DNA from: an uncultured Clostridia bacterium
GTDB lineage: Bacteria; Bacillota; Clostridia; Christensenellales; UBA1750
Length of the DNA stretch: 38,557 nt
Assembly: GCA_944383925.1 (NCBI GenBank)
Contig: CALWRM010000154.1
Span: 1-38,557 of the forward strand
Direction: 5' to 3'
Within the stretch, counting starts at the first letter, position 1. Every line of letters starts with the position of its first letter. The notes under the pieces are model-generated. The model had not been told where the DNA came from, did not search any database, and worked only from the letters and a program-made list of their open reading frames with translations. A program made the translations under genes and the position numbers. This document shows, one piece after another, positions 1,314 through 31,776 of this stretch.

Positions 1314-1967
1314 TTACGCCTTGGCGGCCTGGGCGGCCACTTCCTCGGCAAAGTTGTCCTGGCGCTTGGTCAGGCCCTCGCCCATCTCGTAACGCACGAA
1401 GCGGCGGATCTTCACGTTCTCGCCGGTCTTCTGGATGCGATCGGTCACGTACTGGGCAATGGTCATGTCGGGGTCCTTGACGAACTGCTGGTCCAGCAGG
1501 CAGTTGTCCTTATAGAACTTCTCCACGCGGCCCTCAACCATGCGCTCGATGATCTTCTCGGGCTTGCCCTCGTTGCGGGCCTGGGCGCGCAGAATCTCGC
1601 GCTCCTTCTCCAGCACGTCCGCAGGAACTTCCTCGCGGGACAGGTACTGGGGATTGGCGGCGGCCACGTGCATGGCCACGTCGCGCACAAAGGACTTGAA
1701 CTCGGGCGTCTTGGCCACAAAGTCGGTCTCGCAGTTGACCTCGATCAAAACGCCAATCTTGCCGCCCATGTGGATGTAGCTTTCCACGATGCCCTCGGCG
1801 GCGATGCGGCCGCCCTTCTTGCTGGCGGAAGCGATGCCCTTCTCGCGGAGAATCTCAACGGCGCGGTCCAGGTTGCCATTGGCCTCGGTCAGCGCCTTCT
1901 TGCAGTCCATCATGCCAACGCCCGTCATCTCGCGCAGGGTCTTGACATCGCTAGCGGAAATAGCCAT
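1314..1967 (-). CDS. tsf: Elongation factor Ts
   Basis: EF-Ts exchanges GDP for GTP on EF-Tu during translation. The protein has 217 aa, the short form with a reduced second core subdomain compared with the E. coli protein of about 280 aa. It starts with the UBA-like module ([19 protein letters not shown]), followed by a lysine-rich hinge, the core segment [16 protein letters not shown] (family signature, the TDFV element contacting EF-Tu) and a C-terminal segment with [10 protein letters not shown]. Start ATG at 1967 behind GGGAGG. It lies 44 bases downstream of rpsB and is co-transcribed with it. Confidence 0.97.
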
Positions 1968-2011
1968 ACGGATTACCTCCCGGTCAAAATATTAACGGAT
2001 CGTATTTTCGC

Positions 2012-2767
2012 TTACTCGGCGGCTTGGGCGGCCTCTTCCTCGGCGGGCGCTTCGGCGGCGGGCGCCTCGGCCTCCTCGGTGTCCTCGCCCTGGTGGCCTT
2101 CCAGGATGGCGTCGGCCATCTTGCCGGCGATCAGCTTCACGGCGCGGATGGCGTCGTCGTTGCCGGGGATGACATAGTCGATCTCATCGGGGTCGCAGTT
2201 GGTGTCCACGATGGCCACGATCGGAATGCCAAGGGCGCGGGCTTCCTGCACGGCGATGTGCTCCTTGCGGGGATCCACCACGAACAGGGCGCCGGGCAGG
2301 GTCTTCATCTCGCGAATGCCGCCCAGGTTGGCCTGCAGCTTGGTGCGCTCCAGCTCCAGCTTGGCCACTTCCTTCTTGGGAAGCAGGTCGAACTGGCCGT
2401 CGGCCTCCATCTTATCGATCTGGTTCAGGCGGGCGATGCGGGTCTTGATGGTGCGGAAATTGGTCAGCATGCCGCCCAGCCAACGGTTGTTGACATAGAA
2501 CATGCCGCAGCGCTTGGCTTCCTGCTCCACGGACTCCTGGGCCTGCTTCTTGGTGCCCACGAACAGAACGCTCTTGCCCTCCAGGGCCAGGTCGCGGATG
2601 AACATGTAGGCTTCGTCGATCTTGCGAACGGTCTTCTGCAGGTCGATGATGTAGATGCCGTTGCGCTCGGTGAAGATGTACGGGGCCATCTTGGGGTTCC
2701 AGCGGCGGGTCTGGTGACCAAAGTGCACGCCGGCTTCGAGAAGCTGCTTCATGGAAATGACTGCCAT
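2012..2767 (-). CDS. rpsB: 30S ribosomal protein S2
   Basis: S2 binds late to the 30S head-platform junction and is needed for S1 and initiation. The 251-aa protein shows [20 protein letters not shown] at the start (family signature), [33 protein letters not shown] and [20 protein letters not shown]. The C-terminus carries an acidic Ala/Glu tail, a common S2 extension. Start ATG at 2767 is placed by homology and by AAGGAGGGA upstream; the frame is open further upstream without similarity. It is the first gene of rpsB-tsf-pyrH, with its own promoter at 2888-2917 and a folded leader. Confidence 0.98.
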
Positions 2768-2986: not shown

Positions 2987-3010
2987 GGGTCTTGGGCGCC
3001 GGGCGCCGCC

Positions 3011-3877
3011 TCATTTGGCCTTGGGCCCATGGCGCGCGGGCAGGAAGGAGCGCAGCCCCAGCAGGGCCAGCGCCAGGCCGAAGCTCAGGTTGCTTTGGGG
3101 CTGCACGCAGCCAGCCGCGATGCCAAGGCAGGTCCGCAGCGGACCGGCCTGCTGCATCCAGGGATTGAAGAGGGAACAGGCGAAGCACAGCTGCAGGGCG
3201 GCTATCATGAACAGGGCCACGGCCACGGAACGGCGCACGGGCCGCAGCAGGGGCTGCAGGCAGGCGGCGACAGCCAACAGCAGCAGGGCGCGCAGGCCGA
3301 TGGCCGCATTGGCCTGCGCAGCCTGCAATCCGCTGCGCTGCAGCAGGTGCAGCGGCCTTTCCAGCAGCAGGACCGCCAGCAGGCAGGCGGCGGCCAGCAG
3401 CGCCCGCTTCCAATGGAAGCCCGCCTTCCCCCCGCCGCGGGCCAAGCCGCTCAGGCAGGACAGCAGCAGCAGGCACCACAGCGCCAGGCCCGCCAGCGGG
3501 AAGTTCTTCGTGTATTGCAGCCAGCGCAGGCGATAGGCCTCGGAGAGCAGGGGCGTGGCCGTGGCCAGCACGTACCAAAGCAGGCCCAGCGCCAGGGCCG
3601 GCAGGGCGTCCAGGGGGCGCTCCAGCCCGCCCGCCGCGCCGCAGAGCAGCAGCCCGCCGCCCAGCGCCAGGCCCACCACCCAATAGGGCAGGCGGGAGAG
3701 GCCCAGGCGCGCGTAGTTGTCCTCGGCCACGGGGCCCAGGAGCGGCAGTTCCTCCAGGGCAGAGGAATACAGGCGCGTGAAGAAACAGCCGACGAACAGC
3801 CCGACGACGAGCAGCGCCACGCCCAGCCAGGCAAGGATTGCGGAAAGGTTGCTTGTAGGAACTGCGATCTTCTTCAT
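3011..3877 (-). CDS. Polytopic integral membrane protein, unknown function
   Basis: The product has 288 aa from the ATG at 3877, chosen because AAGGTGG lies 8 bases upstream; a GTG four codons earlier is less well placed. It begins with a short basic n-region (MKKIAVPTSN) and contains about seven or eight hydrophobic segments rich in Leu/Ala/Gly (for example ILAWLGVALLVVGLFVG, YWVVGLALGGGLLLCGAA, LALWCLLLLSCLSGL), separated by short Arg/Pro loops. No catalytic or transport motif is recognisable. It lies 50 bases downstream of a decayed secreted-protein gene on the same strand and ends in its own terminator, so the two may once have formed an operon. Its base composition is GC-rich like the chromosome, unlike the AT-rich pseudogene. 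Confidence 0.75.
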   Translation of the reverse strand: MKKIAVPTSNLSAILAWLGVALLVVGLFVGCFFTRLYSSALEELPLLGPVAEDNYARLGLSRLPYWVVGLALGGGLLLCGAAGGLERPLDALPALALGLLWYVLATATPLLSEAYRLRWLQYTKNFPLAGLALWCLLLLSCLSGLARGGGKAGFHWKRALLAAACLLAVLLLERPLHLLQRSGLQAAQANAAIGLRALLLLAVAACLQPLLRPVRRSVAVALFMIAALQLCFACSLFNPWMQQAGPLRTCLGIAAGCVQPQSNLSFGLALALLGLRSFLPARHGPKAK

Positions 3878-3927
3878 GCTCTCGCCCACCTTCTACATCA
3901 ACGGATTACTGGAGAGTTATCTTCTTC

Positions 3928-4647
3928 TTACAGATAGTCGTAACCATCGATAATGATTTCGACATAAACGCCGGAAGGTCCAGAATGATATAGAGTAGTC
4001 GCAGCCTTTCCTAAGTTATCCAAATTCAGCCAGCTTGAATCAGGAGAGGGTACATAGTACCAAGAACCAGCGGCAGGAGAGCTCCAAGACTTGTCGTTTA
4101 AAGCACCCCAATAGGTTGAAGCATAGCCAATGGCTATTTCACCAAGCAATGTATACGGAGTATAGCTAGTGGAAGATACGATATATCTGTGAGAAGATTG
4201 TGTATATCGAATTTGCCCCATTCCAATTTCGTCATATTCAACACTATAATGGATGCGAGCATAAACTGTAAAACCATACGCAGATTTAGAATCTTGCTTG
4301 GAGCCAGAAATGCTTGAAACAGTGGTGGTTACATATTCATCGATCGTTGAACCGGACCCTGTCACCGTTCTTTTCAATAACTGCGTAGTTTCATTCTGTT
4401 CATCTACGATGTAGCCTGCACTTCCATTTAGAAAAGAGGTATTTTGTCGAATCTAAATTTTCTCCTTAACGAGGGGAGATCGTTCATCTATATGTAAGTC
4501 CGCTCTCAGTTTCAATAGATTTGTGTCTTGTATTACTTGATTCTCAATCTGTACAGATTCTGTAGTTTTGGCAAAAGAAAGTATCATTGAACCTAATAGC
4601 GATAAGATCAATGCAAAAACAAGAAACACTCTTTCTACGGATTTTAT
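3928..4647 (-). pseudogene. Decayed secreted protein with signal peptide; lost start codon and in-frame amber
   Basis: On the minus strand AAAGGAG stands 7 bases before ATA (4647-4645), not ATG. The frame from there reads IKSVERVFLVFALILSLLG and on to SFAKTTE, a clear signal peptide of about 27 residues, and stays open to a single TAG at 4455-4453. The same frame then continues without a break for 175 codons to TAA at 3928, through a Tyr/Ser-rich region with short beta-like strands (FTVYARIHYSVEYDEIG, GVYVEIIIDGYDYL). Two lesions, a missing start and one amber codon, suggest inactivation; alternatives are start at an internal GTG or TTG, or readthrough. The gene is far more AT-rich than its surroundings, which points to acquisition. 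No family was recognised. Confidence 0.7.
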
Positions 4648-4752
4648 ACTCTTACTCCTTTCTTCTATCCTTCCCGTCCAACCCGAACAGAATCATTCAT
4701 TGGCTTAGCAACACCTCGTTTCTTGACTTTATTCATATTTTAACCCAACATG

Positions 4753-22190: not shown

Positions 22191-23084
22191 ATGCGGCAAA
22201 AAACCCTTGTTTTCCAGGGCTGCGGCACAGCCATGATCACGCCCTTCACCTGGGACGGCGGCCTGAACCTAAAGACCTTCGACCAGCTGATCGACTTTCA
22301 GCTTGAAAACGGCACCGACGCCCTCATCGTTTGCGGCACCACCGGCGAGCCCTCCACCATGGACATCAGCGAGGAGGCCGTGCTCATCTCCCATGCGGTG
22401 GAGCGGGTGGCCGGCCGCAAGCCCGTCGTGGCCGGCGCCGGCAGCAACGACACCAGCTTTGCCATCCGCTCTGCCAAGCAGGCCAAGTCCCTCGGCGCGG
22501 ACGCGCTGCTGCTGGTGACCCCCTACTACAACAAGACCTCCCAGGAGGGCCTGGTCCGCCACTTCAACGCCATCGCCGACGCCACGGACCTGCCCATCAT
22601 CCTGTACAACGTCCCCTCCCGCACGGGCGTCAACCTGCTTCCCCAGACGGTGCGGCGGCTTGCCGAGCACGAGAACATCGTGGGCGTGAAGGAGGCCTCC
22701 GGCGACATCGCCCAGGTGGCCAAGATCGCCGCCCTTTGCCCGGAACTTGCCATCTACTCCGGCAACGACGACTATGTGGTGCCCGTGCTGTCCCTGGGCG
22801 GCAAGGGGGTCATCTCCGTGGTGTCCAACCTGCTGCCCGCCCTGATGCACCAGATGGCCATGGACTACCTGCAGGGCCGCTGCCGGGAATCCCTGGAGGC
22901 CCAGCTGCGCATTTTGCCGCTGGTCTCGGCCCTGTTCAGCGAGGTCAACCCCATTCCCGTCAAGACCGCGCTGGGGGACATGGGCTATGATTGCGGGCCC
23001 CTGCGCCTGCCCCTGATCGAGATGCAGCCCAACACCCATGCCGAGCTGCTGCGCCAGCTCCGGGCCTTCGGCCTGGTGGAATAG
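22191..23084 (+). CDS. dapA: 4-hydroxy-tetrahydrodipicolinate synthase
   Basis: 297 aa, TIM-barrel aldolase of the lysine/diaminopimelate pathway: condenses pyruvate with aspartate semialdehyde. Visible: GCGTAMITPFTWDGG near the start, LIVCGTTGEPSTMD (family GTTGExxTL; the Thr pair binds the pyruvate carboxylate), VTPYYNKTSQEGL with the catalytic Tyr, YNVPSRTGVNL, and the Schiff-base lysine at residue 167 in IVGVKEASGD. Length is normal. Start ATG at 22191 behind AAGGAGG. It is the first gene of a lysine-riboswitch operon with dapB (51 bases downstream) and an MFS gene. Confidence 0.97.
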   Translation: MRQKTLVFQGCGTAMITPFTWDGGLNLKTFDQLIDFQLENGTDALIVCGTTGEPSTMDISEEAVLISHAVERVAGRKPVVAGAGSNDTSFAIRSAKQAKSLGADALLLVTPYYNKTSQEGLVRHFNAIADATDLPIILYNVPSRTGVNLLPQTVRRLAEHENIVGVKEASGDIAQVAKIAALCPELAIYSGNDDYVVPVLSLGGKGVISVVSNLLPALMHQMAMDYLQGRCRESLEAQLRILPLVSALFSEVNPIPVKTALGDMGYDCGPLRLPLIEMQPNTHAELLRQLRAFGLVE

Positions 23085-23135: not shown

Positions 23136-24305
23136 ATGCTTTCCATTTTGATCAACGGAGCCCTGGGCAAGATGGGCCGCACGCTGGCGGCCTGCGCCGT
23201 GGAACAGGGCTTTGGCGTTTCCGCGGGCGTGGACCGCTACGCCGCCGGCGCCAAATGCAGCTTCCCCCTTTACGAACGCCTGTGCGATTGCCGCGAGCAG
23301 GCCGACGTGTTGGTGGACTTTTCCAGGCCGGACGCCCTGGAGGAGCTCCTTTCCTACGCCTTGGAGCGCCGCCTTCCCCTGGTGTTGGCCACCACCGGCT
23401 ACACGGCCGAGCAGGAGGCCCTGGTCCAGCAAGCCGCCAAGGAGCTGGCCATCTTCCGCACGGCCAACATGTCCCTGGGCGTCAACGTCCTGCTGGAGCT
23501 GGCCAGGCAGGCCGCCTCCGAGCTGCACGGCTTCGATATCGAAATCGTGGAAAAGCACCACAAGACCAAGGCGGACGCCCCCTCGGGCACGGCCCTGCTG
23601 TTGGCCGAGGGCCTCAAGCAGGGGCTGCCGGAGGAGCGCCAATACGTCTTCGGCCGCCAGGGCCTGTGCCCCCGGCAACCCCAGGAGATCGGCATCCATG
23701 CGGTGCGCGGCGGCAGCGTGGCCGGCGACCACGAGATCTTCTTCCTGGGCGAGGACGAGACCGTCACCCTCTCCCACTCCGCGGCCAGCCGGCGCATCTT
23801 CGCCAACGGCGCCCTCAAGGCCGCCGGGTACATCGTGAGCCAGAGGCCGGGGCTGTACAACATGCGCGACCTGCTGCTGCAAAACGCGGGCGTCACCCAC
23901 CTGCGCGCCGAACAGGGCCAGGCCTTGGTTACCCTGCCGGACGGCGGCCGCGGCGCCGCGGAGCTGTTCCGGGGCCTGGCCTCCCTGGACATCAACGTGG
24001 ACATGCTGGCCCAATCCGCCCGCGAGGAAAGCTTCTCCTTCACCCTGCGCGAGGAGGATCTCCCCCGGGCCAAGGAGCTGCTGGACGGCGCCAAGCTGGT
24101 GCTCGGCCTGGTGAAGCTCACGGTGCTCGGCCAGGGCATGGAGAAGCAGCGCGGCATCGCCGCCGGCGTGTTTTCCCAGCTGGCCCAGGTTCAGGCGCAT
24201 CCCCTGCTGGTCACCAGTTCCGAAACCCAAATCAGCCTGCTGCTTGGAGAGGAGGAGGCGCAGTTGGCCGCCGACGCGCTGCGGCGGCGCTACGGCCTGC
24301 GCTAG
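23136..24305 (+). CDS. dapB: 4-hydroxy-tetrahydrodipicolinate reductase fused to two ACT domains
   Basis: 389 aa, whereas DapB is normally 240-275. Residues 1-249 are a complete DapB: INGALGKMGR (NAD(P)-binding loop), VLVDFSRP, VLATTGYT, ANMSLGVNVLLELA, VEKHHKTKADAPSGTALL (catalytic His-His/Lys motif), RGGSVAGDHEIFF and the closing helix. Residues 250-389 match the regulatory ACT pair of aspartokinase: ACT1 with VTHLRAEQGQALVTLP, LASLDINVDMLAQS, FSFTLREEDLPRAKELL; ACT2 with VKLTVLGQGMEKQRGIAAGV, VTSSETQISLLLG and a final RRRYGL. The fold and order are those of lysine-binding aspartokinase ACT domains, so allosteric control of the reductase by lysine or a related amino acid is a reasonable inference. 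Start at 23136: the GAGGA site is 11 bases upstream; the GTG at 23127 is too close to it. Confidence 0.93.
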   Translation: MLSILINGALGKMGRTLAACAVEQGFGVSAGVDRYAAGAKCSFPLYERLCDCREQADVLVDFSRPDALEELLSYALERRLPLVLATTGYTAEQEALVQQAAKELAIFRTANMSLGVNVLLELARQAASELHGFDIEIVEKHHKTKADAPSGTALLLAEGLKQGLPEERQYVFGRQGLCPRQPQEIGIHAVRGGSVAGDHEIFFLGEDETVTLSHSAASRRIFANGALKAAGYIVSQRPGLYNMRDLLLQNAGVTHLRAEQGQALVTLPDGGRGAAELFRGLASLDINVDMLAQSAREESFSFTLREEDLPRAKELLDGAKLVLGLVKLTVLGQGMEKQRGIAAGVFSQLAQVQAHPLLVTSSETQISLLLGEEEAQLAADALRRRYGLR

Positions 24306-24314
24306 GGCAAGGAA

Positions 24315-25592
24315 ATGAAGATTGGGCAGCTGCGGGACGAGCGCTGTTCGCGCCTGGTGTTTTGGGCCGCCTGGGTCGCCTATGCCTGCACCTACATCGG
24401 CCGCATCAACTACTCCGCCGCGCTGGCCGGTATGGTCAGCGCCCAGCTGTTTACCAAGGCCGAGGCCAGCGTGATCGGCACGGTGTTCTTCTTCTGCTAC
24501 GGCGCCGGCCAGCTGGTCAACGGCTTTTTGGGGGACCGGCTTTCGCCCTTCCCCATGCTCTTCACGGGCCTGACCGTCAGCGCCTGCATGAACGCCCTGA
24601 TGTGCTGGATGCCCTCGGCCCTTTGGCTCTCCGTGGTCTGGGGGCTCAACGGCCTGGCCCAATCCATGATTTGGTCGCCCATCGTCCGGATCCTCTCCAC
24701 GGTGCTGGCGCCCTCCCAGCAGCGCAAGGCTTGCCTGAACATCGCCTCCACCACGCCTGTGGGCACGGTGGCCGCCTACGCGCTCTCCATGCTGATGCTG
24801 CGCTTCTTCTCCTGGAGGGCCGTGTTCCTGGCGGCCGGGCTCTGCATGCTGCCGGCGGTGGGGCTGTGGATCTACGCCTGGCGGCGCTACGCCGGCCAGG
24901 AAACCGTCCCGCCGGCATCGCCCGCGCCCCTGCGGCCGTCCGCAGGCGGAGGAAAGGGCCTTTGGCCCCTGCTGCTGGCCTCCGGCGCGGCGCTGCTGGT
25001 GCTGCCGACCCTGTTGCACGGCATGCTCAAGGACGTCATCACCACCTGGGTGCCCACCATGATCACGGAAAGCTACGGGGTTTCGCCCTCCTTCTCGCTG
25101 GGGCTGACGCTGGTGTTGCCCATCGTCAACCTGTCCGGCGCCGTCGGGGCCACCTGGCTTTGCCACAGGCATTGCGGCGGCAACGAGGTGAAGGCGGCCG
25201 CCTGGTGCATGGTGGCCATCCTCCCGCTGTTGGGCTGCCTGTGCTTCATCGGCCGGGTGCCCATCTACCTGGCGGTGCTGCTGCTGGCCCTTTGCACCTC
25301 GCTGCTGCTGGGCTTTAACCACATGCTCATCACGCTGGTGCCGGTGCGCTTCGGGCCCTATGGCAAGACCTCCACCGTCTCCGGAACGCTCAACTCCACC
25401 ATCTACATCGGCTGTTCGCTCTCCAACTACGTCTTCGGCCTGGTGGCCGACCGCGGCGGCTGGACGGTGACGGTGTTCTGCTGGCTGCTGATCGCGGCGC
25501 TGACCCTGTTTCTCTGCCTGGTGGCCCTGCGCCCCTGGGGCAGGTTCTGCCAGGAACGGCCGGACCGCGCACAGGCCCTCGCGGGAAGATAG
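24315..25592 (+). CDS. MFS transporter, organophosphate:phosphate antiporter-like
   Basis: 425 aa with 12 predicted helices and a cytoplasmic loop in the middle. The N-terminal helix ends CTYIGRINYSAALAGM, like the RMNLS/RxNYS element of the GlpT/UhpT (OPA) group, followed by GAGQLVNGFLGDRLSP (the MFS motif A region, here GDRLSP). The central loop (VPPASPAPLRPSAGGGKG) separates the two six-helix halves; the second half has the GFNHMLITLVPVRFGPYGKT segment typical of these carriers (read in pieces). It begins 9 bases after dapB and shares its promoter and riboswitch. Substrate unknown: OPA carriers move sugar phosphates, but the setting suggests an amino acid or pathway product. ATG at 24315 after AAGG. 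Confidence 0.88.
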   Translation: MKIGQLRDERCSRLVFWAAWVAYACTYIGRINYSAALAGMVSAQLFTKAEASVIGTVFFFCYGAGQLVNGFLGDRLSPFPMLFTGLTVSACMNALMCWMPSALWLSVVWGLNGLAQSMIWSPIVRILSTVLAPSQQRKACLNIASTTPVGTVAAYALSMLMLRFFSWRAVFLAAGLCMLPAVGLWIYAWRRYAGQETVPPASPAPLRPSAGGGKGLWPLLLASGAALLVLPTLLHGMLKDVITTWVPTMITESYGVSPSFSLGLTLVLPIVNLSGAVGATWLCHRHCGGNEVKAAAWCMVAILPLLGCLCFIGRVPIYLAVLLLALCTSLLLGFNHMLITLVPVRFGPYGKTSTVSGTLNSTIYIGCSLSNYVFGLVADRGGWTVTVFCWLLIAALTLFLCLVALRPWGRFCQERPDRAQALAGR

Positions 25593-31579: not shown

Positions 31580-31657
<78 letters not shown>

Positions 31658-31699: not shown

Positions 31700-31776
31700 G
31701 GCGGCGTAGCTCAGTTGGCCAGAGCATTCGGTTCATACCCGGAGTGTCGTAGGTTCGAATCCCACCGCCGCTACCA
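31700..31776 (+). tRNA. Elongator tRNA-Met (CAT)
   Basis: Seven-pair acceptor GGCGGCG/CGCCGCT (G1-U72 included), anticodon loop TTCATAC, variable loop GTGTC, T loop TTCGAAT, CCA encoded; 77 nt. The anticodon stem is TTCGG/CCGGA, without the three G-C pairs of initiators; an Ile2 (lysidine) tRNA is less likely from its similarity to known elongator Met. The T stem GTAGG/CCCAC has an A51-C63 mismatch, the same position as in the neighbouring initiator tRNA. Confidence 0.9.

Follow-up and report, generated by a model that had tools for sequence, protein, structure and literature searches.

The window, by which we mean the whole 38,557-nucleotide stretch of DNA from an uncultured Clostridia bacterium that was analyzed, carries a dapA-dapB operon on its forward strand, in which the dapB gene (positions 23136 to 24305) is one open frame of 389 aa plus stop that encodes a DapB reductase fused to two ACT domains. 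Upstream of it lies dapA (22191 to 23084, + strand), which encodes a 297-aa 4-hydroxy-tetrahydrodipicolinate synthase (Pfam DHDPS, 9.5e-94) in which the catalytic residues T44, T45, Y107, Y133, R138, and K161 are kept. The leader of the operon contains a lysine riboswitch aptamer (RF00168; 21806 to 22021, + strand) that sits 170 bases before dapA and that scored 49.2 bits with cmscan (E, 6.5e-12) against a gathering cut-off of 30. This riboswitch precedes the dap operon in 10 of 10 relatives from the window's family and is also found at fused and split loci of the class (L052, L056, L061, L066, L071, and L162), in agreement with a first-pass annotation of the window that had placed a lysine riboswitch upstream of dapB. 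A reading in which no riboswitch is present came from the fast default filters of Rfam applied to the whole window and was overturned by a sensitive scan. A major facilitator transporter gene (24315 to 25592, + strand) starts 9 bases after the dapB-ACT stop codon and is possibly part of the same operon. The window also holds two tRNA genes (31580 to 31654 and 31700 to 31773, + strand), both with the anticodon CAU as read by eye.

Residues 1 to 249 of the fusion protein (23136 to 23882, + strand) are a complete DapB. Pfam assigned DapB_N to residues 3 to 112 (1.9e-23) and DapB_C to residues 115 to 247 (1.3e-42), and the NCBIfam dapB model TIGR00036 scored 203.6 bits against a cut-off of 122, with model positions 2 to 269 of 270 covered. 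The DapB active-site motif E139-KHHKTKADAPSG-T152 (23550 to 23591, + strand) is intact in the window protein, and within it E139, H141, H142, K145, D147, and P149 to T152 are invariant across 30 fused homologues. The N-terminal dinucleotide glycines G8, G11, and G14 are also present and are likewise invariant in the 30 fusions, and we predict that this part of the protein has NAD(P)H-dependent reductase activity.

The remaining residues, 250 to 389 (23883 to 24302, + strand), are an ACT pair of the class II aspartokinase type. In Pfam, ACT_9 matched two stretches of the fusion protein, the best at residues 329 to 384 (7.5e-17; 61.3 bits against a cut-off of 27), while the plain ACT model gave a weak match to residues 274 to 316 (0.004). 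Residues 252 to 388 matched aspartate kinase models, PRK06635 and others, at 2e-15, and the tail alone, when searched against PDB sequences, matched aspartokinase regulatory domains (3l76, 5e-19; 4go5, 4e-12; 3s1t, 5e-12; 2dtj, 1e-9). The amino-acid kinase domain is absent from the fusion protein, and the aspartokinase models match by their C-terminal parts only. We also obtained an AlphaFold2 monomer model from the window protein and its related sequences, with a mean pLDDT of 94.8 and a pTM of 0.81. Beyond residue 255, this model has two beta-alpha-beta-beta-alpha units, which is the ACT topology twice. When the model was used in Foldseek, DapB structures ranked first (4ywj, 1.1e-28), and next among other folds came the lysine- and threonine-bound Corynebacterium glutamicum aspartokinase 3aaw (1.6e-14), with 3c1n also matched. 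Thus, the Pfam, NCBIfam, PDB, and model results all bear out the division of the protein proposed in the first-pass annotation, a complete DapB of 249 residues followed by an aspartokinase-type ACT pair, including its coordinates, and the tail is predicted to fold as that annotation had supposed.

We then looked for the fusion in samples of genomes from the window's family, order, and class. Searching with the whole protein, we found a full-length fusion without a stop codon in 10 of the 11 family genomes. Within the order, 261 of 297 genomes had a DapB match, and in at least 52 the match extended to residue 370 or further without a break in the frame; these fusions fall in about 17 of the 33 families sampled. 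The class sample contributed 20 further genomes with a fusion outside the order, from 7 families, so a survey of DapB across Clostridia finds the DapB-ACT fusion recurring in the family, the order, and other families of the class. A frameshift or assembly error that joins DapB to a separate aspartokinase piece had been named at the outset as what could undo the fusion reading. We found no point in support of such an artefact, and it is refuted by the same junction being shared by dozens of independent genomes, including the single-contig genomes G040 and G062, which leaves it a vanishingly small probability. One fused DapB-ACT gene (L163:4998-6212) comes from a record titled Spirochaetae bacterium HGW-Spirochaetae-7, which represents either a transfer outside the Clostridia or a binning error. 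Some DapB frames of families f15, f6, and f12 have long N-terminal extensions; these match nothing and are probably open frame upstream of the true start.

In 15 other genomes of the class, the match spans the ACT part but crosses a stop codon. ORF analysis of these split loci identified a dapB gene of 250 to 258 aa followed by a separate ACT-pair ORF of 150 to 165 aa, with a gap that ranges from a few bases to a few dozen and a stand-alone ORF that usually lies <100 bases downstream. Stand-alone pairs sit by dapB in families f46, f47, f51, f55, f57, f58, f71, f79, f90, f91, f96, and f98 and in several Oscillospiraceae, and the ACT domains were confirmed by Pfam in 6 of these ORFs. Among the matches listed, 80 loci are named, and of these 3 are fused, 9 are split, and 6 have a nearby aspartokinase; no ACT pair was detectable at the other 62, with none at the Lachnospiraceae loci, where pairs that are too diverged or >2 kb distant are counted as absent. 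At L079, L090, L091, and L166, the gene order is asd-dapA-dapB, then a dapH-like gene of about 245 aa (named from sequence alone), and then a full class II aspartokinase, so that the operons form a series that runs from asd-dapA-dapB-dapH-aspartokinase through dapA-dapB-ACT to dapA-dapB~ACT. At L076, a full class II aspartokinase (3010 to 4209) is directly followed by a second, stand-alone ACT pair (4222 to 4701) in the same dap operon. Since the ACT pair adjoins dapB in many families and is fused to it in others, we infer that DapB and the ACT pair work together, and the unfused adjacent gene is the stronger functional clue. The first-pass annotation was right about the fold, the aspartokinase origin, and the riboswitch, and it described the fusion itself, but it treated the window protein as one protein and missed the separate ACT gene that adjoins dapB in many Clostridia, and with it a sizeable clade in which some members are fused and others are not.

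To place these pairs, we built an ACT-pair tree of 66 rows with bootstrap and SH-aLRT support, as well as a larger quick tree of 129 rows. The fused pairs, the stand-alone pairs, and the ACT pairs of the dap-operon aspartokinases form one clade (100/100), and neither the solved aspartokinases nor the remaining class II kinases of the genomes concerned fall within it. Inside the clade, support is 98/89 for a group of the fused pairs and 100/96 for a second group made up of the stand-alone pairs, and the 129-row tree gives the same picture. A tree of DapB separates the fused copies from the split ones, and several losses or decays fall within the fused part. With one clade overall and the fused forms grouping together inside it, the most economical account is that the kinase domain of an operon aspartokinase was probably lost, while the ACT pair remained beside dapB and was later joined to DapB in a single fusion. 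The series from full regulatory kinase to free subunit to fused domain is unusually clear.

Some lineages have lost the ACT part or carry it in degraded form, and it is therefore dispensable there. In family f18 of the order, DapB proteins (L109:1501-2694, L130:2156-3307, and L131:340-1392) have tails of 100 to 150 residues without a match to an ACT model, whose pattern, for example TRITVSEPSIGRRVTAEDIACALLEHHLFPLALSIQ, looks like a decayed ACT pair, and the DapB part is intact in these genomes despite the decayed tail. Within the window's own family, genome G006 (L011) has an unfused dapB of 248 aa (1495 to 2238, minus strand) with the riboswitch still upstream. We rejected a simple loss of the tail in this genome, as its DapB groups far away in the DapB tree; the dapB gene was probably replaced in place by a DapB of distant ancestry. 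In each of nine close pairs that were compared, the ACT part has a dN/dS below 1 (range, 0.05 to 0.61), a value that is mostly above that of the DapB part. Constraint is weakest in the window's own pair, with a dN/dS of 0.61 for the ACT part and 0.42 for DapB, and these estimates are limited by high G+C.

We mapped the predicted ligand face of the ACT pair onto C. glutamicum aspartokinase (CgAK) by alignment. The predicted effector loop of ACT2, G332-Q-G-M-E-K-Q-R-G340-I-A-A343 (24129 to 24164, + strand), contains M335 and G340, which are invariant in the fusions of the window's order and 98% conserved across all fused sequences. The ACT2 strand V359-T-S-S-E-T-Q-I366 (24210 to 24233, + strand) is the equivalent of the aspartokinase strand I-S-T-S-E-I, with S362 at 98% and T/S361 conserved in fused proteins. 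The ACT1 strand I286-N-V-D-M-L-A-Q293 (23991 to 24014, + strand), which aligns to CgAK I291 to Q298, is predicted to be the second wall of the kept effector site, and its D289 is invariant in alignment A1. In CgAK numbering, M354 (98%), G359 (98%), S381 (98%), and D294 (93%) are kept in the fused proteins, so that the kept face consists of the ACT2 loop (M354, G359, V360, A361, and A362), the T-S-E strand, and the ACT1 strand I-N-[IV]-D-M. Across 43 fused and 31 stand-alone proteins, few columns of the tail are kept as well as those of the ACT2 loop and its partner strand. In contrast, D274, P276, G277, and N374, which we take to be the threonine-side residues of CgAK, are not conserved in the DapB-linked pairs; the CgAK positions Q298 and A279 appear in PMC10464499.

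The kept positions include ones with a known link to lysine. In Corynebacterium pekinense aspartokinase, T379 and A380 adjoin the inhibitor lysine, and its Kd rose from 1.32 to 9.24 mM when these residues were changed (PMC8690038). The C. pekinense numbering is that of CgAK plus 18, since R151 of CgAK is R169 there (PMC4691045), and T379 and A380 therefore correspond to T361 and A362 of CgAK, in the ACT2 loop. As the face on the lysine side is conserved, whereas that on the threonine side has eroded, lysine or meso-diaminopimelate is favored over threonine as the ligand, by analogy with these enzymes. Several observations count against an allosteric reading. In the window protein, ACT1 is weak in Pfam and its loop is altered, and the ACT dN/dS of the window's own pair is the highest of the nine. 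The ACT part is dispensable in the lineages that have lost or degraded it, and DapA may still respond to lysine. In class II aspartokinases, lysine also contacts the kinase domain, which is missing here.

Textbook control of the lysine and diaminopimelate pathway acts at aspartokinase and DapA, with DapB as a follow-on step. The contrast drawn in the first-pass annotation, that regulatory domains here sit on DapB, holds for the domains themselves but is less clear as regards control at DapA. His or Glu at DapA position 56 (E. coli numbering) is a marker of sensitivity to lysine (PMC5109050), and the window's DapA has Glu56, with P48, I53, and F84 in place of S, H, and E in the lysine site. This DapA may be lysine sensitive, and DapB may therefore add to control at DapA instead of being the sole point of control. 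When position 56 was compared in the dapA genes of 181 loci, His was found in 30 of 30 split genomes, while 26 of 41 fused genomes had Lys or Arg and 8, including that of the window, had Glu. We rejected the idea that the fused DapB replaces lysine control of DapA, as unfused neighbors of the fused clade also have Lys or Arg at this position and the window has Glu. Independent contrasts showed no link between fusion and position 56, and the pattern reflects shared ancestry.

Taken together, the presence of the ACT pair on or beside DapB suggests that a step held to be unregulated is under allosteric control. We put a probability of roughly 0.6 on the reading that DapB here is an allosteric enzyme that acts through an aspartokinase-derived ACT pair, with lysine as the likeliest ligand, and that the pair was fused once after a stage as a separate subunit. 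For the wider proposal, that DapB is an allosteric point across much of the Clostridia, with the ACT pair of an operon kinase serving as a subunit or domain that senses lysine or meso-diaminopimelate in addition to a lysine riboswitch, we see the chances as even. A control signal other than these, such as threonine, methionine, or another amino acid, is quite unlikely: class II kinase ACT pairs do bind threonine as well as lysine, and the window protein still has Asp at CgAK position 274, but the wall of the threonine site at N374 is His in the window protein and rarely Asn in the clade, and the riboswitch ties the operon to lysine. The pair could instead be mainly structural, tying or stabilizing DapB chains and binding no effector, which would fit with the erosion of one of the two classical effector faces, with f18 tails that have decayed beyond recognition by Pfam next to an intact DapB, and with the several losses of the ACT part. 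A structural role does not, however, predict that the ACT2 loop and its partner strand would rank with the best-kept parts of the tail in both fused and stand-alone proteins, and we consider it unlikely.

A further possibility is that the ACT pair acts on aspartokinase as a beta subunit, with the fusion docking DapB onto the kinase. Class II enzymes, to whose type the pair belongs, use a free ACT-pair beta subunit in an alpha2beta2 organization (PMC8690038), and a class II kinase is present in some of the split genomes. The window's genome, however, has a single full-length aspartokinase, a PRK09034-type enzyme (G000:C131:2306-3613; 523.5 bits against a cut-off of 434), and no partner kinase of the same class as the pair was found there. 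Among the order's fused genomes that were examined, all but G093 have one aspartokinase each, with a score in the range of PRK09034, a distant type; direct typing covered the window's genome and G005. With a PRK09034-type enzyme as the sole aspartokinase, a class II beta-subunit role is unlikely in these fused genomes. The split genomes G411, G506, and G472 gave no class II kinase match, and in the tree the DapB-linked pairs branch separately from other class II kinases that occur in the same genomes. We regard this kinase-docking role as very unlikely overall.

If DapB is indeed allosteric through its ACT pair, the route to this state would begin with an aspartokinase of the same dap operon that lost its kinase domain and left the ACT pair, which would first have served as a separate subunit encoded beside dapB and then have been fused to DapB a single time, in an ancestor of the fused lineages. 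In the present enzyme, the ACT pairs of neighboring chains would dimerize as they do in aspartokinase, and the end-product amino acid, most likely lysine and next meso-diaminopimelate, would sit where the ACT2 loop of one chain faces the ACT1 strand of its partner. Binding would shift the DapB tetramer and presumably lower its activity, and the operon would then sense its end product twice, slowly at the riboswitch RNA and quickly at DapB.

To our knowledge, DapB has so far been treated as unregulated, also in studies of it as a drug target, and no mention of a DapB-ACT protein or of a DapB-linked ACT subunit was found in the open-access literature searched. If the allosteric reading is true, a control point moves to the branch that makes both cell wall diaminopimelate and lysine, and flux models and work on DapB inhibitors would be affected. 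The hosts of an ACT pair on or beside DapB include many gut and environmental Clostridia, among them several gut Oscillospiraceae.

Compared with known systems, residues 1 to 249 have the same active-site motif and the same fold as DapB (TIGR00036; PF01113 plus PF05173), but no DapB chain that the PDB search brought up exceeds about 280 aa or is listed with an ACT pair, and the fusion protein has a further 140 residues. The tail is like the class II (PRK06635, LysC-type) aspartokinases and the C. glutamicum beta subunit (2dtj and 3aaw) in the order of its two ACT domains and is about the same length, and its stand-alone relatives resemble the free beta subunit of C. glutamicum aspartokinase in size. 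It differs from the class II aspartokinase pair in being linked to DapB rather than to a kinase, in its eroded threonine face, and in forming its own clade with the dap-operon kinases. The riboswitch has the same placement before dapA as in other dap operons with a lysine riboswitch (RF00168), but the aptamer here is divergent and was missed by fast filters. Finally, ACT domains have been added to other biosynthetic enzymes, such as 3-phosphoglycerate dehydrogenase and the phosphoserine phosphatase SerB2, and the DapB-ACT protein follows the same logic.
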